A stretch of 36,983 nt of DNA from a virus. Under the pieces are notes generated by a model. It saw nothing but the letters and a program-made list of their open reading frames with translations. It had not been told where the DNA came from and searched no databases. Within the stretch, counting starts at the first letter, position 1. Each line of letters begins with the position of its first letter. Positions 3,225 through 20,598 of the stretch are shown here, one piece after another. The stretch lies in IMG/VR virus record IMGVR_UViG_3300042114_000139, positions 1-36,983 of that record; one strand, given 5' to 3'. The position numbers were made by a program, and so were the translations under genes.

Positions 3225-3250
3225 TGGGTAGCCATAGGGTAACCTTTTAT
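3225..3250. repeat. attL (left copy of the 26-bp core)
   Basis: The repeat begins TGGGTAGCCATAGGGTAACC and ends CTTTTAT, and is identical to 36720-36745. Inside it GGGTAGCC and GGGTAACC are repeated 11 bp apart, and each fits the self-complementary pattern GGNTANCC, consistent with paired recombinase-binding sites. The last two bases (AT) are the first two bases of the integrase start codon. The core is not a tRNA gene. Confidence 0.9.
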
Positions 3251-4331
3251 GAAGAAAATTTTATCAAAAAGATATGAGGGAGTTTACTATTCGGAGCTTG
3301 TGGATGGTGACAAGACTTATTATATCACATACAAAGACAAAGAGTCTAAAAAAGTTTGGGTAAAGATTGGGAAACACTCTCAGGGCATTCGTGAGAACTT
3401 CTGCTCGCAGGCACGATCAGAGCAGATGAATAAGGTTCGGCTTGGCGAAAATGTGACGATAGGAAAACCAAAGCGTAGCCTAACAACACTCAATGACATA
3501 GCAGACGCATACGTCACAGAGAAAGAGCTCCATAATCGAGGCATTAAAGTGGAAATCCAAAGATACGACAAGCACATAAGAGACGATTTAGGACGCTACA
3601 ACATTGACGAAATAACAAAGTCACATCTCGAAGCGTTGCAGAAGAAAAAGAGAGAAGAGGGCTATGCGGACCAATCTGTGAACCACATGCTGCAAATGCT
3701 GCAAACTATCTACAATCACGCTATAAAAAATGGAATCTATAAAAAAACAAATCCACTGCTTGATATAACTTACTTTAAAATCAGCAACGATAGAGAGAGG
3801 TTTTTGACAATAGAAGAGATAAAAGAGCTTTTTGAGTATGTGAAAGAAAACGAGCAGCTTTATTTGTTTACGAAGTTGGCGCTTACTACCGGAGCGCGAC
3901 TGCAAGCAATAATGGATATAAAAAAGAAGGATATTGATTTTTCAAACCGCATTATAACTCTGAATGACTACAAGAACGGGAGTATTTACAAGGGGTTTTT
4001 CAATGAGGATGTGGGGGAACTTTTAATGCGGCATAGTGCAGATAAAAACTATAATGATACGCTTATGACATATTCACGGTCAAATGTATCTAAGCGATTG
4101 TTGAAAGTTTTGAATGATTTGTTTAATAAGGGATTAGAAACAAAAGACGCGCAAAACAAAGTCGTAATTCATACTTTGCGACATACATTCGCTTCGCACC
4201 TGGCAATCAATGGAACGCCGATTTTTACAATACAAAAACTCATGAACCACAAAGATATAAAAATGACGCTGCGATACGCAAAACTAGCACCTGACAGCGG
4301 CCGCGATATGGTTGAAGCTCTATACATTTAA
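3249..4331 (+). CDS. int: Phage integrase, tyrosine recombinase
   Basis: A 360-residue tyrosine recombinase that should integrate and excise the prophage at the flanking 26-bp cores. The N-terminal part (about 1-70) resembles an arm-site DNA-binding domain, residues 80-165 a SAM-like core-binding domain, and 185-355 the catalytic domain. Catalytic residues are R217 (TTGARLQ), H308 and R311 (HTLRHTF), H334 (MNHKD) and nucleophile Y343 (RYAKL). The start codon overlaps attL, so the DNA upstream of it, including the promoter, is exchanged on integration. The only RBS candidate (AGGG) lies inside the att core. The stop overlaps the stop of the convergent HTH gene by a few bases. Confidence 0.95.
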   Translation: MKKILSKRYEGVYYSELVDGDKTYYITYKDKESKKVWVKIGKHSQGIRENFCSQARSEQMNKVRLGENVTIGKPKRSLTTLNDIADAYVTEKELHNRGIKVEIQRYDKHIRDDLGRYNIDEITKSHLEALQKKKREEGYADQSVNHMLQMLQTIYNHAIKNGIYKKTNPLLDITYFKISNDRERFLTIEEIKELFEYVKENEQLYLFTKLALTTGARLQAIMDIKKKDIDFSNRIITLNDYKNGSIYKGFFNEDVGELLMRHSADKNYNDTLMTYSRSNVSKRLLKVLNDLFNKGLETKDAQNKVVIHTLRHTFASHLAINGTPIFTIQKLMNHKDIKMTLRYAKLAPDSGRDMVEALYI

Positions 4332-4564
4332 TGAACAGACACCGTGCCACAAATGTAGCGCGCGACTTCCACAATAGGGAAAACGACTTTTGCGCTTTTT
4401 TCTTTGCCGAGTTTTTTATAGTTTGGCAAATCTATCCCTTTACTGATGCGATTGCTGATTGTTGACTCACTTACATTGAGTTCGTGAGCGACTTCTTTTT
4501 TTGTCATAGTTGCTTTTTTATAAGTCTCTTTGAGAAACTTTAGCGTTTCTTCGAACTCTGTCAT
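4328..4564 (-). CDS. Small HTH protein, candidate excisionase
   Basis: A 78-residue protein with a helix-turn-helix near residues 22-40 (KKEVAHELNVSESTISNRI) followed by PNYKKLG and a short beta-like segment. The layout resembles MerR/AlpA-type excisionases (recombination directionality factors). It is the last gene of the leftward early operon and ends tail-to-tail with the integrase, the two stops overlapping. AAAAGGAG precedes the ATG. Expression from the leftward promoter only after derepression would suit an excisionase. Function is inferred from fold and position; a transcriptional regulator is the alternative. Confidence 0.65.
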   Translation of the reverse strand: MTEFEETLKFLKETYKKATMTKKEVAHELNVSESTISNRISKGIDLPNYKKLGKEKSAKVVFPIVEVARYICGTVSVH

Positions 4565-6383: not shown

Positions 6384-6650
6384 CGTCTGCTCCTTATGTA
6401 AGTATTTAATCAGAGCAGTCTGCAGCTTACTCTCAGGTAGATACTTATCTTAAAACTCTGTGCAACAAGCAGCTGTAAGCTTTAGTGGTGCAACTACTTA
6501 CTGCATCGAGATTTAAAACCGTAGCACCGCCTCTGCGCTTTGGTATGTTGAAATTAGTCTATGGGTTGTCCAGCGTCCCAAGTTAATAAGTGAAAGAAAC
6601 TTCAAAACAAGTTCGCCTCGTAAAAGGCTGTTTTGTTTCGCGATTGAAAA
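6384..6650 (-). other. Untranslated leader of the leftward early operon
   Basis: About 270 bp with no credible gene on either strand between the operators and the first small gene. It contains inverted repeats: CAAAACA/TGTTTTG with an inner GCC/GGC pair (6603-6635), and GGTGC/GCACC enclosing about 35 bases near 6495-6540. A long structured leader at this place is where lambda-like phages carry antitermination (nut-like) signals, but no known box can be matched. The adjacent stretch to 6745 holds the operators and the promoter of the HsdR-like gene. Confidence 0.4.
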
Positions 6651-6702
6651 TGATACTATTTGTATCTTTAAATGAATATTAAATTAGATACTTTATGTAT
6701 CT
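6651..6702. promoter_or_regulatory. Left operator pair of the CI-type repressor
   Basis: Two copies of an inverted repeat with half-site GATAC and 5-bp spacer: TGATACTATTTGTATCT (6651-6667) and AGATACTTTATGTATCT (6686-6702), 35 bp apart centre to centre. The same motif occurs three more times next to the repressor gene. The pair sits between the leftward early operon and the rightward HsdR-like gene, so the repressor probably controls both. Confidence 0.75.
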
Positions 6703-6707
6703 TATGA

Positions 6708-6720
6708 GGATGTATAATTA
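6708..6720 (+). promoter_or_regulatory. Probable promoter of the HsdR-like gene
   Basis: TGTATAAT places a perfect TATAAT at 6713-6718, 28 bp before the chosen start. The second left operator ends 11 bp upstream of it and would cover the -35 region, so repressor binding should block it. Confidence 0.55.
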
Positions 6721-10071: not shown

Positions 10072-10665
10072 TTAAAAATCCGTATCAACTACGCCGACAA
10101 CGCGAGCCATTTTAAGGTCTGATTCATCATCTGCATGTACGGTAATGATATTAAAGTCACTATTGATTGGTACAAGCGAAATCGTGTCGCCTTTTTCATT
10201 TATCTTATATTTCTTAATGCCGCTTTCTCCATCAAGAGAGTAGTGGACAATATTGCCGTTTTCTATGTGGCGGTGTACATTACAGTAGACTATGGCGTTA
10301 TTGTTAATTTTAGGGCTCATACTATCACCCTCAGCTCTTACAGCATACATTCCTTCTTCATATATGTCTGCACTTACCGGAACAGGCTCATATCCATTTA
10401 GGTCATACTCTTGAGGTGCGCCGCATGATGCTAAACCTATGAGTGGAATTGTTCTGATTTTTGCTTTATTGTTTTCACCAAATAAATCTGAAACACTTAC
10501 TTTTAATATTTTTGATATGTTTTTAATTTGTTCCGGAGAAGGCGTTCTAATACCATTAGACCAATGAGTAACTGTACCCCGTGTTATCTCTAAAATATCA
10601 GCAATGTTTTGAGCTGTAATATTTTTTTTATTCATATAATATTTTAAGTTCTCTGCAAAAGTCAT
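10072..10665 (-). CDS. CI-type repressor with S24 self-cleavage domain
   Basis: A 197-residue lysogeny repressor. The N-terminal HTH (about 1-58) reads NITAQNIADILEITRGTVTHW. The C-terminal LexA/CI-type peptidase domain (from about 75) has a probable cleavage bond C81-G82 in LASCGAP, catalytic Ser115 in AEGDSMSP and a general-base Lys at 151 or 152. RecA-stimulated self-cleavage would induce the prophage. ATG 10665 is chosen because AGGAGAAAGT precedes it; upstream in-frame ATGs fall inside the operators. Three operator copies lie just upstream, and the HATPase cassette follows 3 bp after the stop. Confidence 0.93.
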   Translation of the reverse strand: MTFAENLKYYMNKKNITAQNIADILEITRGTVTHWSNGIRTPSPEQIKNISKILKVSVSDLFGENNKAKIRTIPLIGLASCGAPQEYDLNGYEPVPVSADIYEEGMYAVRAEGDSMSPKINNNAIVYCNVHRHIENGNIVHYSLDGESGIKKYKINEKGDTISLVPINSDFNIITVHADDESDLKMARVVGVVDTDF

Positions 10666-10682
10666 ACTTTCTCCTAAATAAT

Positions 10683-10757
10683 GATACATATTGTATTTAA
10701 TTACAAGATACATAAAGTATCTAAATTAATAATCTTTTAAAGATACTTTATGTATCC
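10683..10757. promoter_or_regulatory. Right operator region, three sites between repressor and cro-like gene
   Basis: Three copies of the GATAC-N5-GTATC inverted repeat lie at 10683-10697 (one arm ends GTATT), 10706-10722 (perfect) and 10741-10757 (last base differs). Centre spacings are 24 and 35 bp. Divergent promoters are probable: TACAAT for the repressor on the minus strand near 10690, and TAATAAT near 10726-10732 for the rightward genes. The arrangement is equivalent to lambda OR1-OR3. Confidence 0.8.
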
Positions 10758-10764
10758 TTTTGGC

Positions 10765-14633: not shown

Positions 14634-15185
14634 TTGGCAAAAGACATTGATTGGGCACATATCCGAACTGAATATGAAGAAACTACAAAATCAGTGCGAA
14701 TGATTGCTCGTGAAAACAACATTACTCATGGAGCAATTCAACGAACTGCAAAGCTTCAAGGGTGGAAAAAGTTTAGTCCGGATGGAGTTGTAAATGATAG
14801 GGCCTTAGTTGGGAAAAATCCTATCCTTGGCAAAATAGCATTGAGAAAGATGAACGAACTTATCTATGAACTTGGGGAGAACTATTCCGCACTTGATGAA
14901 CCTTTGGTCGCAATTTATGCATCAAATTATGAGTTATGGATTGAGCAAATGATGATTGTCAAAGAAGAAGGCCTCATTTCTATAAGCTCGAAAGGAAGTG
15001 AGTACTTATCTGCTAATTTTTCCGCACTTCTTCCACTTCAAAAAAGCATGATTACTATTGCAAATCACCTGGGCCTCTCAATCTCTTCGCGCAAAAGAAT
15101 CGGCATGACAACAAAAGTCGACCCGCAAGAGTCGTCACTATTCGATATTGGCTCTGAACTTAACGAGTATTATTTAGATGTCTGA
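14634..15185 (+). CDS. Terminase small subunit (P27-like)
   Basis: A 183-residue protein. The N-terminal HTH (IDWAHIRTEYEETTKSVRMI, then ARENNITHGAIQRTAKLQGW) recognises DNA, and the C-terminal half contains the P27-type region ending LPLQKSMITIANHLGLSISSR. It should bind the packaging site and recruit TerL. The start is TTG 14634 with AAAGGA upstream; this gives MAKDIDW. The gene overlaps terL by eight bases. Confidence 0.87.
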   Translation: MAKDIDWAHIRTEYEETTKSVRMIARENNITHGAIQRTAKLQGWKKFSPDGVVNDRALVGKNPILGKIALRKMNELIYELGENYSALDEPLVAIYASNYELWIEQMMIVKEEGLISISSKGSEYLSANFSALLPLQKSMITIANHLGLSISSRKRIGMTTKVDPQESSLFDIGSELNEYYLDV

Positions 15186-16872
15186 AAATTCAAAAGCAAA
15201 CAAACGTATACTAGAAATACCTTACTACGAAAAAACATTTGAACGACATAAAAACGACTTGATTGCTGTTTCTTCTGGATTGCGCGATGATATTCGCTTT
15301 AATAAAAAACTTGGAACTGCCTATGTCGTTATCATTGAAAAACTAAAACACTTTGAGGGAGAGTGGGCCGGAACTCCAATTGTCCTTGAAGCGTGGCAAA
15401 AAAAAGCTATAGCTATATGCTTTGGATGGCAAAAAAAGCGCCTTGACAAAGATGGTAATCCTCTTCTAAAAAATGGTCAACCGCAATGGATTAGAAGATT
15501 TAACACTGCGTTTTGGTTTATTCCTCGTAAAAATGGTAAATCTATTTTAGCCTCCGGTGTTGGTATTGCAGAGTCTATACTGACAATTGAAAAAGGAAAT
15601 CAAATTGTCTCATTTGCAACAAAAAAGGATCAGGCGAAAATAATCTGGAACGGCTGTGAGAAAATGGTTAACTCAAATAAAGAGTTAAAAAGTAAAAGTA
15701 CTATTGCCTATTCAACAATAAATGTAAATCCAACATCCACAACCATCAAACCACTCGGCCGTGACTCTCAAACTGAGGACGGATTAAACATAGGATTAGG
15801 CATAGGAGATGAAATACACGCTCACCCTGACCGAACTATGATTGAAGTCGTTCAGTCCTCTCAGGGCTCTCGTGTGCAGCCTATGATGTTCTATATCACC
15901 ACCGCAGGATTTGACACCGCGTCACCTGGAGCGAGCGAATACGAATACGCGAAAAAAGTCATGGATGGCGTAATCGAAGATGATAGCTATTTTGCACTTA
16001 TCTGCGAGCTGGACAAAGAAGATGATCCATTTGATGAGAGCGTATGGCACAAAGCAAATCCAAACCTTGGCGTGTCAAAATCTTGGGATTATATGCGAAA
16101 ACAAGCGAAGCAAGCACTTGAGCGAGCAGAAACACGCAACAACTTTCTGGTTAAAGACCTCAATCGCTGGGTAAACGCAGCCGAAAATTTCATTAAATTT
16201 GAAGAGTGGGAGGCATGTACTGTTGATAAAATAGATTTAAGTGAGGCAATAGCTACTCTTTTAGGAGTAGATTTATCGCGAACTGATGACTTCACGGCAC
16301 TTGCAAAGACATATATGTTTCCAAATAACCGCTACTACACAACACAGCACTATTATATTCCAATGGAAAACGTAAAAGAACGTGAGAGTGAGCTGAGAGC
16401 ACCACTCACTAAATGGATTTTAGAGGGTTATATCACCGCAACACCTGGTAATACCATAGACTATGACTATATACAAAAAGATATTTTACAAGAAATAGAA
16501 GAGGGCGTAAATGAGATTTGTTATGATCCATACAGAGCAGCTACCCTTATTGCAAATATAGAGCGTGAGAGTGGCTTTGAGGGATGCGTACAAATCCGTC
16601 AAGGATATCTTACAATCAGTGAGCCAACATTCAATTTTAAAGATTATACAAAAAAAGGCACTTTGATGCACGATAGAAATCCCGTCACAAAATGGATGGT
16701 ATCAAATATGAGTGTTCTCAGTGATGCAGCCGGCAATATTAAACCAGACAAATCAAAGCCGAATAGGAAAATAGATGGATGCGCCGCAATAATAAATACA
16801 CTCGCCCGTTCTGTTGTTTATGAACCGGAACAAAAGAGTGTTTATGAAGAGAGAGGGATTAGGAGTGTTTGA
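15178..16872 (+). CDS. Terminase large subunit
   Basis: A 564-residue packaging motor of the Terminase_1 (HK97-like) family. The ATPase has Walker A PRKNGKS (116-122) and Walker B GIGDEIH with D211/E212. The RNase H-like nuclease begins near LLGVDLSRTDDFTAL with D365. Full family length. It works with TerS, HNH and the portal to cut and pump DNA into proheads. In related phages the portal follows directly; here a 2.3-kb moron block intervenes. Confidence 0.94.
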   Translation: MSENSKANKRILEIPYYEKTFERHKNDLIAVSSGLRDDIRFNKKLGTAYVVIIEKLKHFEGEWAGTPIVLEAWQKKAIAICFGWQKKRLDKDGNPLLKNGQPQWIRRFNTAFWFIPRKNGKSILASGVGIAESILTIEKGNQIVSFATKKDQAKIIWNGCEKMVNSNKELKSKSTIAYSTINVNPTSTTIKPLGRDSQTEDGLNIGLGIGDEIHAHPDRTMIEVVQSSQGSRVQPMMFYITTAGFDTASPGASEYEYAKKVMDGVIEDDSYFALICELDKEDDPFDESVWHKANPNLGVSKSWDYMRKQAKQALERAETRNNFLVKDLNRWVNAAENFIKFEEWEACTVDKIDLSEAIATLLGVDLSRTDDFTALAKTYMFPNNRYYTTQHYYIPMENVKERESELRAPLTKWILEGYITATPGNTIDYDYIQKDILQEIEEGVNEICYDPYRAATLIANIERESGFEGCVQIRQGYLTISEPTFNFKDYTKKGTLMHDRNPVTKWMVSNMSVLSDAAGNIKPDKSKPNRKIDGCAAIINTLARSVVYEPEQKSVYEERGIRSV

Positions 16873-16937: not shown

Positions 16938-16975
16938 TTAAATTAAACTTAATTTAAGTCACATAGATATATAAT
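16938..16975 (+). promoter_or_regulatory. Promoter with palindrome between terL and the moron operon
   Basis: A 9-bp inverted repeat TTAAATTAA-AC-TTAATTTAA (16938-16957) precedes a perfect TATAAT (16970-16975). The layout is that of an operator-controlled plus-strand promoter with a start near 16982. No plus-strand ORF follows, so the transcript would be non-coding and would run antisense into the nuclease gene. Confidence 0.5.
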
Positions 16976-16980
16976 CTCCA

Positions 16981-17099
16981 CTAAGAAGTTGGTCTTCTGG
17001 TATAAAACCATCAGAGTTCGTCTCGGACGTCACGCTAGGGATTGCATTTGCAAGGCATTAGCCAACACCTGAGAAACGCAGTAGTTTTTGGTCTACTGC
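16981..17099 (+). ncRNA. Candidate structured small RNA
   Basis: About 120 bp that are clearly more GC-rich than their flanks, non-coding, and directly after a promoter-like sequence. Several hairpins can be drawn: AGAAG/CTTCT (from 16985), CGTC/GACG near 17018-17030, the self-complementary TTGCATTTGCAA near 17043, GGC/GCC around ATTA, a long-range GTTGG/CCAAC pair, and a perfect 7-bp stem GCAGTAG/CTACTGC (17078-17099) that overlaps the stop of the convergent nuclease gene. I cannot match it to a known RNA family. It could also be a DNA-level structure. Confidence 0.4.
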
Positions 17100-17500
17100 T
17101 CCTCTACAAATATTGTCTTCAACTCCAGTCTTTTTTCTCTATGTATTTTTAACTTTACAAGTTTTACATTTTTTTTATCATAATTTTTATAAAACTCAAG
17201 ATTAATAAGTGATGCACCTGTCTTAGAATCTGTTGTTATACTCTTTTTTACACTATGAAAATGTTGAATTATCTCAGGTATTTCACAAATAAAATCAACA
17301 TCATTAGGATGTCTTCTCTTTACATGTCTTACTTCATTCGCTCTGATGACACACATATATCCGCTCATATCAAAAAACAAAATCCCTTTTACCCTTCTTA
17401 CTGTCTCAGCCGGTATAGAAAACGAAAGTTCTTCTTTAAACTGTTTATCCGATAAAGAATTCTCAATATGAGCGCAGATTAGTTGTCTCAGAGCATCCAT
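17093..17500 (-). CDS. PBECR-like (barnase/EndoU/RelE-type) nuclease-domain protein
   Basis: A 135-residue protein. The central part (IRANEVRHVKRRHPNDVDFI, then CEIPEIIQHFHSVKK) fits the phage-Barnase-EndoU-colicin/RelE-like nuclease families (PBECR, closest by pattern to PBECR3), with the conserved His/Arg cluster HVKRRH as probable active-site residues and a beta-rich C-terminus. If active it would be an RNase-type toxin. It is the last gene of a three-gene minus-strand operon; its start overlaps the stop of the TerB-like gene (TAATG on that strand). The assignment is from memory of the family pattern. Confidence 0.6.
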   Translation of the reverse strand: MDALRQLICAHIENSLSDKQFKEELSFSIPAETVRRVKGILFFDMSGYMCVIRANEVRHVKRRHPNDVDFICEIPEIIQHFHSVKKSITTDSKTGASLINLEFYKNYDKKNVKLVKLKIHREKRLELKTIFVEEQ

Positions 17501-18054
17501 TACTTATTCTCATCACTTTTCTTCTCTAAATAATCTAAAATTTCCTGTTCTGATGGATGGATTATTTTTTGAGTATTGATGATTTTTTTTGCAAAGTCCA
17601 ATAAATCAACATCTAGCGTTTGGCTTATTAACAGCTTGTTGACATTAAGTTTAAAAGCTTGTATTGAAGTAACTTTTTGTTTTTTATAAACATATTCTAA
17701 AAATCTATCTGTTAAGTATTGGTTGTTGTCTTCTAATTTTTCAAACAACTCCTTGACGATTTCTTTTTCTTGTTTTGTAAAAGTACTATCTGCTTTAACT
17801 ATGAAAAATATAACTTTTAAAAGAAGGGCGTGTTTTTTTTGAAAATTTCTTTCGTATGTGCTTCTTTTAACATCTTCTTCGTACTTTGCTCTCTCCTCTA
17901 GAGATTGAGGAGTTCCTTGCATGGCAACAGTCATTTTAAATACTTCATTAGATATATTAGTAGTTTGTTTTTTAGGAACTGGTTCTTTATTTGAAGATTT
18001 ATATAACATATATCCTCCAATTGCCACGCCAAGAATAATTATTTCAGTTATCAT
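17500..18054 (-). CDS. Membrane-anchored TerB-like protein
   Basis: A 184-residue protein. An N-terminal transmembrane segment (MITEIIILGVAIGGYMLY) is followed by a linker and a helical domain (about 80-175) with HALLLKVIFFIVKADSTFTK and QEKEIVKELFEKLE, the pattern of TerB/DjlA-like domains. TerB-like domains often act as sensors or scaffolds at the inner membrane in stress and phage-response systems. ATG 18054 gives a clean N-terminal anchor; an in-frame start further upstream would overlap the HTH gene. It is coupled to the nuclease gene downstream. Confidence 0.7.
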   Translation of the reverse strand: MITEIIILGVAIGGYMLYKSSNKEPVPKKQTTNISNEVFKMTVAMQGTPQSLEERAKYEEDVKRSTYERNFQKKHALLLKVIFFIVKADSTFTKQEKEIVKELFEKLEDNNQYLTDRFLEYVYKKQKVTSIQAFKLNVNKLLISQTLDVDLLDFAKKIINTQKIIHPSEQEILDYLEKKSDENK

Positions 18055-18055
18055 C

Positions 18056-18265
18056 CTACAGCTTCTCCTTGATAGTCTCTTTGATATTTTCAAACTTTTT
18101 AGCTTCTATGTAGTTTTCCAACCAACTTTGCACCCATGGCGGTACAGGTTTATTTTCATCGTTCCAATTATTGACTGTGTTGTATGAGATGTTTGATAAA
18201 TTTGCAAATTCTTTTTTGCTGAGATTTATATCTTTTAAAATTTGTGTCAATTCAGCTTTAAGCAC
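18056..18265 (-). CDS. Small HTH regulator of the moron operon
   Basis: A 69-residue Cro/YdaS-like HTH protein: SKKEFANLSNISYNTVNNWN as helix-turn-helix, then VPPWVQSWLENYIEAKKFEN. The start is GTG 18265 with AAGGA eight bases upstream. It leads the operon and lies directly downstream of a perfect palindrome (18282-18314), so autoregulation is probable. It might also neutralise the nuclease as an antitoxin, which the sequence cannot show. Confidence 0.75.
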   Translation of the reverse strand: MLKAELTQILKDINLSKKEFANLSNISYNTVNNWNDENKPVPPWVQSWLENYIEAKKFENIKETIKEKL

Positions 18266-18281
18266 GGTAATTCCTTACTTC

Positions 18282-18314
18282 TTGACAGTACCGATTTAAA
18301 ATCGGTACTGTCAA
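18282..18314. promoter_or_regulatory. Perfect palindromic operator, 15-bp arms
   Basis: Arms TTGACAGTACCGATT and AATCGGTACTGTCAA are separated by three bases. It lies 16 bp upstream of the HTH gene's GTG. On the minus strand TATACAAT directly precedes it as a -10-like box, so a protein bound here would block initiation. Confidence 0.8.
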
Positions 18315-18326
18315 TTGTATATTAAT

Positions 18327-18418
18327 TTGATGTATTATTATATCAAAATGTATTTAAATGATGTACTTAATATTGACATTTATATTTTAATGATGTAAAC
18401 TTTTGAAATAAAACATCA
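18327..18418. repeat. TGATGTA direct repeats upstream of the rha gene
   Basis: TGATGTA occurs at 18328, 18359 and 18391, i.e. 31 and 32 bp apart (three helical turns), and an inverted partial copy (ACATCA) lies near 18412-18418. The repeats occupy the promoter region of the plus-strand Rha-type gene and look like phased regulator sites. Confidence 0.5.
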
Positions 18419-18430
18419 AAGGAATGTAAA

Positions 18431-19117
18431 ATGAATGATTTAATAATAGTTTTAGATAACGAACCAAGAGTATCTCACAAAGTAATTGCTGAAAATACTT
18501 CAAATAAAGTACAGTCTATTCAAGATTTAATCACTAAAAATTTACCTGACTTTGAAGAGTTTGGTACGATGGAAGTCGAAATTTTAAATGTCAAAAACAG
18601 TGCAGGTGCATCCAATCAGCAAAAGACATATTTTTTAAACGAGTATCAGGCGACATTGCTCATGACATATCTCAGAAATAGCGAGATAGTCAAAAAGTTT
18701 AAAATATCACTTGTTAAAGAGTTCTATAAACTCAAAGAGAATCATCGTAAATCACTCGAAAACAACAAAGCTCACATAACAGGTGGCTACAAATCTCAAC
18801 TCTCTCAAAAGAACTCTAAAATCAAAGCGCTTGAAACGCAACTGTTAATGTTAGACTGTAGTTTAGATGCAGAAATAGATTATCGATTAAGAGCTAAAGC
18901 ACTTTATCCAATCATACTTAACAGATTTGATTTGCTAGATGAAAAATTACATGATAGATTTTTATCTTTGCCATATCTCGAGGAATACCTAAATGACATT
19001 AAACAACTTCTAGCAGTTGAAGCCAGAAAGTGTAAGTACATCACCATCCTTGGAAATGGAACAGCAGTAAATAATTTTGTAATTGAGGACAGCAACAAGA
19101 AGCTTACTTTTAAGTAA
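18431..19117 (+). CDS. Rha family phage regulatory protein
   Basis: A 228-residue protein. The Rha domain (PF09669) spans about 10-105: VSHKVIAENTSNKVQSIQDL at the N-terminus and QKTYFLNEYQATLLMTYLRN, then VKKFKISLVKEFYKL. A coiled coil and a poorly conserved C-terminal region follow. Rha proteins are lambdoid-phage regulators that affect growth on some hosts. AAAGGAA precedes the ATG. It has its own upstream repeats and downstream terminator, marking a self-contained moron gene. Confidence 0.85.
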   Translation: MNDLIIVLDNEPRVSHKVIAENTSNKVQSIQDLITKNLPDFEEFGTMEVEILNVKNSAGASNQQKTYFLNEYQATLLMTYLRNSEIVKKFKISLVKEFYKLKENHRKSLENNKAHITGGYKSQLSQKNSKIKALETQLLMLDCSLDAEIDYRLRAKALYPIILNRFDLLDEKLHDRFLSLPYLEEYLNDIKQLLAVEARKCKYITILGNGTAVNNFVIEDSNKKLTFK

Positions 19118-19186: not shown

Positions 19187-19384
19187 ATGCAAACATTCAT
19201 ATACCTGAGAGCACTCTATATTTTTTTAGCACTGATATTCCTTGGTATCGCTTTCGCGGTAGCGTTGGCGTTTCCAAGTGTGGCGGACTATGCCTATGCT
19301 GCTGCTATTTTTACTCATTCGCTCATCATGCTCTTTGTATTTGTTCAAGATCTCAAAACTCCACCACAAAAGAGTGACTCATGA
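19187..19384 (+). CDS. Small two-TM membrane protein before the portal
   Basis: A 65-residue protein starting MQTFIYLRALYIFLALIFLG with two transmembrane segments (about 7-29 and 35-53) and a short polar tail. Its stop overlaps the portal start (ATGA), so it is translationally coupled to the head operon. Function is unknown; small membrane proteins of this kind recur near portal genes. Any promoter for the head genes must lie near or upstream of this gene, in 19150-19186 or further left. Confidence 0.65.
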   Translation: MQTFIYLRALYIFLALIFLGIAFAVALAFPSVADYAYAAAIFTHSLIMLFVFVQDLKTPPQKSDS

Positions 19385-20598
19385 GTATCATCGGCGCACT
19401 TAGAGCGCGTGACAGTTCAGGACTTGCAAGCCCAAAAGAGTGGCTTAGTTCTATGTTCTCCATGGAATCCTACTCCGGTGTAAATGTCACTACAAAAAGA
19501 GCAATGGAACACACGGCTGTTTATGACTGTATAAACATATTGAGTGAGTCTATCGCATCACTTCCTATGTCTGTTTATAAGACAGAAACGAAACAACAAA
19601 AATCATTCAAAATAAAAGATACAAATCACCCCCTGCATTTTCTTTTTCACGACGAACCAAACGCAGACATGACAGCGTTTACGTATTATCAACTCATCAT
19701 GGTTCATTTGCTACTTCGTGGGAACTTCTATGTGCAGATTGTACGCAATAACGCAGGCCGTGTAACAGGACTATACCCTCTTGAGAATGAAAAAATGCAG
19801 GTCGTCAGACTTGAGAGCGGACGCATAGGGTATCTCTATACAAGTGCAGCATATGGACAGGTGGCGCTTGAGAGCAGTGAAGTACTGCATTACATTGGGA
19901 TGAGTCTTGACGGTATAGTCGGAATAAGCCCTATTGCTTACAATCGACACACTATCGGCGCAAGTATAGCTATGGAGACATTCGGCTCAACACTTTTCAA
20001 AAATGGCGCTACTCCAAGCGGTGTAGTAAGTGGGAAAGGTGTCACATCCATGAGTGATACTGCGTTTGAGAGATTTAAACAAAGCTTCAAAGAATCTTAC
20101 GCTGGACTTATGAACGCTGGAAAACCGCTCATACTAGAAGACGGTTTCGAGTTCAAGCCTATTACTATCTCCAACAAAGACGGCCAGTATATAGAATCTC
20201 GAAAATTTACAAAAGCGGAAATCGCATCTATCTACAGAGTACCGCTTCATATGCTCAACGAGCTCGACAAAGCTACTTTTTCAAACATTGAGCACCAGTC
20301 TATGCAGTTCGTAGTAGATGCAGTTCGTCCCTGGGCGATTCGCATCGAGCAGGAGAACAAAAGAAAGTGCTTTACGCCTGCAGAGAAAAAAAACTATTAC
20401 GTCAAGTTTAATATGGGAGCACTTCTCCGTGGTGATACACAGAGCCGTTACACGGCTTATGAGTCTGCAATTACAAAAGGTTGTTGGATGAGTAGAAATG
20501 AAGCGCGTGAACTTGAAGATCTAAATCCTATGGACGGGCTTGATGAGATGATAGTACCACTCAACTATGGAAAGGAGGGCGACAGTGCCAAGAACTAA
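19381..20598 (+). CDS. Portal protein (HK97-type)
   Basis: A 405-residue portal subunit of the Phage_portal (PF04860) family: AVYDCINILSESIASLPMSV near 43-62, YYQLIMVHLLLRGNFYVQI, HYIGMSLDGIVGISPI and MLNELDKATFSNIEHQS. Twelve copies form the ring through which DNA enters the capsid. The gene overlaps the protease start (GTG 20585) by 14 bp. Confidence 0.94.
   Translation: MSIIGALRARDSSGLASPKEWLSSMFSMESYSGVNVTTKRAMEHTAVYDCINILSESIASLPMSVYKTETKQQKSFKIKDTNHPLHFLFHDEPNADMTAFTYYQLIMVHLLLRGNFYVQIVRNNAGRVTGLYPLENEKMQVVRLESGRIGYLYTSAAYGQVALESSEVLHYIGMSLDGIVGISPIAYNRHTIGASIAMETFGSTLFKNGATPSGVVSGKGVTSMSDTAFERFKQSFKESYAGLMNAGKPLILEDGFEFKPITISNKDGQYIESRKFTKAEIASIYRVPLHMLNELDKATFSNIEHQSMQFVVDAVRPWAIRIEQENKRKCFTPAEKKNYYVKFNMGALLRGDTQSRYTAYESAITKGCWMSRNEARELEDLNPMDGLDEMIVPLNYGKEGDSAKN

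Follow-up and report, generated by a model that had tools for sequence, protein, structure and literature searches.

A previously uncatalogued pseudoknotted RNA linked to a PBECR3 nuclease: a possible RNA antidote and viral counter-antidote

A PBECR3 nuclease gene among the late genes of a temperate phage is met at its 3' end by a convergent, pseudoknotted RNA, and the two are predicted to form a functional unit in which the RNA, a single unit of ~100-120 nt, binds and blocks an RNase toxin; we give this reading a probability of about 0.68. Computational comparisons identify the family and probable fold of the nuclease, the RNA with its fold and strand, the linkage of the RNA to one clade of PBECR3 genes, and the survival of the RNA where the toxin is gone.

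The window, meaning the whole stretch of DNA that was analysed, is a 36,983-bp virus record of a temperate phage, with an integrase at 3249-4331 and a CI-like repressor at 10072-10713 that is separate from the minus-strand helix-turn-helix (HTH) gene described below. The terminase large subunit (15178-16872) and the portal (19381-20598) are plus-strand late genes, and between the terminase subunits and the portal lie three coupled minus-strand genes opposed to the late genes, an arrangement reported in an earlier note on this DNA and confirmed here by the open reading frames. The HTH gene starts with GTG and the second gene, coding for a membrane protein, with the ATG at 18054; the PBECR3 gene overlaps the stop codon of the second gene. 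Elsewhere in the window there is a 72-nt imperfect inverted repeat (78%; 6647-6718 and 10690-10761), with one arm just 5' of an endonuclease gene (phrog_4225) and one where the CI-like repressor gene begins. The features of the locus are as follows.

16970..16975, plus strand: TATAAT, putative -10 box of the RNA promoter; start expected at ~16982.
16983..16998, plus strand: variable 5' hairpin preceding the RNA core.
17002..17099, plus strand: convergent structured RNA, conserved core with pseudoknot, predicted RNA antitoxin (model R1, 102 bits; covariation over 37 copies; G-U versus A-C cells).
17093..17500, minus strand: PBECR3 nuclease gene, 135 aa, predicted RNase toxin (PF18812, 31.4 bits; model pLDDT 92; invariant H59, H64 and T129).
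17500..18054, minus strand: membrane protein, 184 aa, weak TerB-like match, optional operon cargo (TerB 17.7 bits; hydrophobic N-terminal helix visible in the sequence).
18056..18265, minus strand: small HTH regulator, phrog_8898 (E 1.6e-22; relatives precede PBECR3 in loci L038 and L097).
18282..18314, minus strand: 33-nt palindrome, probably a leader hairpin.
18337..18342, minus strand: TATAAT, probable -10 box of the HTH operon, from the sequence.
18431..19117, plus strand: divergent Rha-type regulator, a neighbour outside the RNase-RNA pair (Phage_pRha, 7.2e-11).

The earlier note had suspected a PBECR-like nuclease in the 135-residue protein and proposed a profile search, which bears the suspicion out: the protein matches PF18812 (PBECR3) with an E value of 2e-7 and 31.4 bits, above the Pfam gathering cut-off of 30, nothing else in Pfam exceeds its cut-off, and PADLOC and NCBIfam give no match. 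The closest solved folds to its AlphaFold2 model (pLDDT 92) belong to RNase toxins, among them the BrnT/RelE type of type II toxin-antitoxin systems, with BrnT (3u97) at Z 7.4, a BrnT-like protein (7vd7) at 6.5, CdiA-CT (6cp9) at 4.7 and RelE2 (3g5o) at 4.2; every score is below 8 and hence modest, and the ranking agrees with the family. Searching solved structures by sequence produced no convincing match for this protein or for the membrane protein. Residues invariant in 16 homologues include H59, H64, T94, K105, K116, K128 and T129, and thus both histidines of the HVKRRH cluster (residues 59-64) that the earlier note had singled out. The PBECR/BECR active-site layout (PMC5512222) combines a histidine in a helix with a threonine or serine in a C-terminal strand; H59 lies in a helix (54-63) and T129 in the last strand (124-134) of the PBECR3 model, matching this layout. 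Conservation and model together support assignment as a BECR-type RNase-like protein with a conserved His and Thr. Close relatives were found neither by a single-sequence scan of viral contigs nor by tblastn in phage records; genome contigs yielded three relatives at 54-63% identity, 397 Campylobacterota genomes eight further ones at 31-41%, and an alignment scan phage relatives at 76% and 39%.

The loci of these relatives have in common a strongly conserved, non-coding block of ~100 nt past the PBECR3 stop codon. Consensus folding of the alignment on the sense strand gives only a terminal hairpin, and that reading was rejected. On the opposite strand the block folds into P2, a short P2b, the hairpin P3, P4 capped by P5, and a terminal hairpin P6, the loop of which (UGGU) pairs with a 5' ACCA to form a pseudoknot; in the window this core (17002-17099, plus strand) runs convergent to PBECR3 and overlaps its stop codon by 7 nt. 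Seven helices, one being the pseudoknot, are supported by 37 copies of the RNA. Pairing holds in 94.1% of the cells against a shuffled mean of 79.3% in a 37-row alignment whose fitting to the model biases it towards that structure, and in 91% of the cells of the unfitted alignment A4. Over the 37 copies, sliding the partners by 1-3 columns brings pairing down to 32-45%, two-sided changes are present at 20 of 27 pairs, and covariation is 0.420 versus 0.164, with none of 500 shuffles as high, a count that is not a probability because the copies are related. The ACCA:UGGU pseudoknot is paired in 98.6% of cells, with a compensatory change from A-U to G-C in two copies. Outside helix P3, G-U cells outnumber A-C cells by 36 to 7; read on the other strand these G-U cells would not pair, which assigns the RNA to the plus strand.

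Folding of single sequences gives the RNA strand no advantage (in the window, z -1.4 for plus and -3.0 for minus). Promoter-like sequence is present 5' of the RNA in many copies, in the form TTGACA-N17-TATAAT in several relatives; the window has a good -10 and a poor -35, and the promoter score rises above shuffles at p 0.05 in only 14 of 30 non-lytic copies. The RNA is present as one unit per PBECR3 gene with no tandem repeats, and none of the 4227 families of Rfam matches it, even at E values as high as 5, either in the window or at 11 related loci. Its alignment and covariance model define a new structured RNA family for use in annotation. An integron attC-like nature of the block was considered and dropped, since it is always accompanied by the same ORF family and its contexts are not cassette arrays. 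A separate Rfam match, to Flavo-1, was recorded in a Campylobacterota genome (L023, 1235-1301; 49.8, above the gathering score of 42).

The RNA adjoins all 17 PBECR3 genes of the clade examined (the window, L013-L015, L028-L038, L091 and L097) and is absent from the 30 PBECR3 loci examined outside the clade, which mostly have larger frames. PBECR3 often starts 0-40 nt past the stop codon of the preceding gene, and the identity of that gene varies greatly: PADLOC identifies cas1f (L013) and cas2-3 (L015) of type I-F CRISPR loci, and sequence inspection adds hsdS (L028), dnaE (L030), a MetH-like gene (L034) and integrases (L031, L033). Because the module follows genes as unrelated as dnaE, hsdS, cas1f and cas2-3, the HTH and TerB-like genes of the window are optional. 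No protein antitoxin gene is common to the PBECR3-RNA loci. Identities of the protein and of the RNA correlate (r = 0.68, with 0 of 5000 permutations as high), as would also be expected from simple joint inheritance.

Several of these loci have features of their own. The units in type I-F cas operons occupy two positions, after cas1f in L013 (90-1447) and between cas2-3 and cas8f in L015 (31-5884), and the ORF that follows the unit in L013 retains just the first 18 residues of cas2-3. The PBECR3 domain and RNA block of L036 (3238-8478) are read through in frame within a polyvalent ORF of 1746 aa. L091 has two RNA copies of different subtypes (3833-3930 and 4449-4537) ~500 bp apart, one of them with a PBECR3 gene.

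The RNA is also found alone. Twenty of the 37 copies have no intact PBECR3 gene adjoining them: eight in the 397 genomes, one on an Arcobacter plasmid beside a frameshifted toxin, five on other viral contigs, two of which retain only the last 26 residues of the toxin, and six in large phages. Remnants of the toxin adjoin an intact RNA in L039, L045, L055, L090 and L094, and they show toxin decay next to a maintained RNA, a pattern that could partly reflect the toxin gene being the larger mutation target. Pairing is kept in the orphans (94.8%, versus 94.2% in linked copies, with L094 entered as linked).

In the six large-phage contigs (L109, L114, L116, L118, L124 and L127; the longest 111 kb) the RNA scores 57-84 bits. 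It is co-oriented with the phage genes, which also supports the assigned strand, and lies after an SSB gene, with an RNA-ligase gene between the two in four of them and a ribonucleotide reductase beyond the RNA in L118, L124 and L127. These copies differ in sequence and keep the fold, and PBECR3 is absent from the 111- and 102-kb records. The SSB proteins are closest to those of N4-like Alteromonas phages, and phrog_743 and phrog_548 are matched in L114 and phrog_84 in L124; from this kinship and gene content all six phages are apparently lytic. Comparison of the RNA copies with cultured phages by blastn gave no match, and the RNA is absent from the 12.6-kb segment searched of the Alteromonas N4-like phage AD45-P3, a distant relative of the orphan carriers. 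Because phage PhiTE escapes ToxIN with an RNA mimic of ToxI, termed pseudo-ToxI (PMC3475682), an antitoxin decoy is the natural reading of the lytic-phage RNAs. L109, L116, L118 and L127 have similar 5' flanks within the 60 nt before the RNA, sharing parts of GAGGACTAATGCGTCAGTAATGGGTGT and GTCTGCTTGAAGACT, in which ARAGORN reports no tRNA, and the flank before the orphan RNA of L124 contains a tRNA-like GCTCAGCTGGTAGAGC.

The strict linkage, the parallel divergence of RNA and protein, and the contact of a large structured RNA with the end of the nuclease gene would suit any RNA-protein partnership, and in nuclease-RNA pairs of other mobile elements the nuclease binds the RNA for its activity or choice of target. 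That the RNA is a cofactor, guide or substrate which activates or directs PBECR3, and not an inhibitor, is nonetheless unlikely: it leaves unexplained the many RNAs that persist without PBECR3 and the lytic phages that have the RNA alone, and the RNA has no obvious variable guide segment. The convergent layout with its overlap at the stop codon also allows complementary transcripts, so that the RNA could act in the manner of type I systems by annealing to the 3'-terminal part of the PBECR3 mRNA and so blocking its expression. Complementarity of this kind needs no conserved fold, yet strong covariation is seen on one strand, and the fold is retained both where the toxin gene has been lost and in lytic-phage copies whose sequences have diverged; we consider an antisense role very unlikely. 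In type I toxin-antitoxin systems the antisense RNA acts on the mRNA of a toxin that is usually a small membrane peptide; at the present locus RNA and gene overlap convergently, but the protein has a 135-aa nuclease fold and the RNA a conserved fold.

Less probable still is the scheme of the earlier note, in which the three genes themselves make up the toxin system, with the HTH protein as antitoxin or repressor and the TerB-like protein as membrane sensor, and the RNA would be a side feature. The genes are coupled as an operon in the window and an HTH gene precedes PBECR3 in five phage loci, the window included, but at 12 of the 17 loci no HTH gene stands in front, the membrane protein is absent from the other 16, and the RNA accompanies PBECR3 at every one, which speaks against the HTH protein as antitoxin and the TerB-like protein as an essential part. 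What stands of that regulated toxin system is an RNase-like protein in a toxin-shaped module, with the HTH protein as plausible regulator; the likely antidote RNA had been overlooked because it is non-coding. Of all the explanations weighed we rate lowest the one that takes the conserved block for a mobile-element end, a recombination or insertion site travelling with PBECR3. The unit does occur in many unrelated contexts, and in L030 (4700-5400) a copy of the final 44 nt of dnaE (89% identical) stands on the other side of it; nothing comparable is found at the 15 other loci checked, there is no shared integrase or transposase, and the covariation, the one-strand G-U pairs and the promoter-like sequence point to an RNA.

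In the proposed toxin-antidote mechanism PBECR3 would be an RNase toxin carried on the transcript of whichever gene stands before it. The RNA would be transcribed from a promoter of its own, and its compact pseudoknot would bind and inhibit the nuclease. RNase activity, toxicity, binding between RNA and protein, neutralisation and the biological role of the module are all predictions of this model. An RNA made separately could be depleted first, which would free the nuclease. In the phage of the window the pair lies behind the HTH and membrane protein genes and would presumably be transcribed in the lysogen, where it would serve for addiction or against other phages. The large lytic phages presumably meet toxin-bearing hosts, and their orphan RNAs would act as decoys that hold the nuclease inactive. 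A broader proposal, to which we give somewhat less than even odds, is that this is a new protein-RNA toxin-antitoxin class, made up of a BECR-type RNase and one convergent pseudoknot RNA, which takes up position as an addictive guard behind genes of the host, type I-F cas operons and type I restriction genes among them, and that large lytic phages have captured its RNA near SSB and RNA-ligase genes as a counter-defence decoy.

The classical RNA-antitoxin systems (type III) comprise three families with one gene order, and the AbiF type adds another. The PBECR3-RNA module resembles ToxIN, CptIN and TenpIN in pairing an RNase-like protein with a pseudoknotted RNA, and its lytic-phage copies resemble the pseudo-ToxI mimic of PhiTE (PMC3475682). 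In classical type III loci the RNA lies upstream of the toxin with a terminator between and a single promoter for both (PMC5086642), the RNA is a tandem repeat, and the toxin is a homologue of ToxN, CptN or TenpN; here the RNA is a single unit, downstream and convergent with its own promoter-like sequence, and the protein is a PBECR3 with a BrnT/RelE-like model. The module is thus type III-like in its likely mode of action and is not filed as type III, because three defining features are missing: tandem repeats in the RNA, an upstream RNA set off by a terminator under a common promoter, and a toxin homologous to the known ones. That RNA antitoxins exist beyond the three classical families follows from the AbiF/RCd22 pair of a Clostridioides difficile prophage, in which a toxic protein is neutralised through direct binding by a structured RNA (PMC12373285). 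Both are phage-borne pairs of a toxic protein and a structured RNA, with toxicity and binding predicted in the present case, but the AbiF protein belongs to Abi_2 (AbiD/F) with links to Cas13 and not to PBECR, and the RNA described here has no Rfam counterpart. CreTA (PMC10097628), a toxic RNA with a crRNA-like antitoxin, guards type I CRISPR-Cas and is similar in being a toxin-antitoxin-like module in or beside cas operons, including those of type I-F; its toxin is an RNA, whereas the predicted toxin here is a protein, and cas loci are just two of the many sites of the PBECR3-RNA module.

Toxins of the BrnT/RelE type have protein antitoxins. For PBECR domains, the part of Iyer et al. 2017 (PMC5512222) used here deals with those of polyvalent phage proteins, of the same PBECR3 family and active-site layout, and notes solo versions in phages; an RNA partner is not mentioned in that part. 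Nor was a PBECR domain with an RNA partner found in the openly licensed literature searched, which is not proof of novelty. The present pairing proposes both a partner and a means of control for a PBECR nuclease. If it holds, RNA-antitoxin systems gain a toxin family unrelated to the known ones, an RNA without repeats and a convergent gene order, and the ToxI mimic of PhiTE would have a natural counterpart in the orphan RNAs of lytic phages.

The TerB-like label given to the membrane protein is weaker than had been supposed, with a score of 17.7 bits against PF05099, below the cut-off of 24.4, and a best stretch of 35 residues; its structural model has a pLDDT of 42, too low for use, and no clear relatives were detected by single-sequence scan of viral contigs or tblastn in phage records. 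Relatives of the HTH protein are encoded in Helicobacter prophages and on viral contigs; their genes often lie divergent from an antirepressor and are followed by varying genes. An HTH gene lies directly before PBECR3 and the RNA in phages L038, L091 and L097, and in L037 the pairing recurs with a different gene between. Because the HTH-PBECR3 pairing recurs in phages, the HTH protein is plausibly the phage's regulator of the PBECR3 operon; a role as main immunity repressor was set aside, given the separate CI-like repressor.

Upstream of the HTH gene the palindrome TTGACAGTACCGATTTTAAATCGGTACTGTCAA (18282-18314, 33 nt) is exact over 16 bp per arm, as described in the earlier note. Its designation there as an operator is an interpretation, and one we doubt: the site falls past the -10 box (18337-18342), within the transcribed leader of the HTH gene, and phages whose HTH relatives have the same recognition helix carry hairpins of other sequence at this site. 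The palindrome is therefore probably a leader hairpin, and the HTH operator would lie elsewhere. In L038 (991-3207) three paralogous genes of this HTH family stand in tandem, with PBECR3 and the RNA after the third. Behind the phrog_8898 HTH gene, L006, L007, L008 and L012 each have a different small gene (120, 70, 96 and 187 aa), often with a divergent antirepressor nearby, and this position may be a cargo site.
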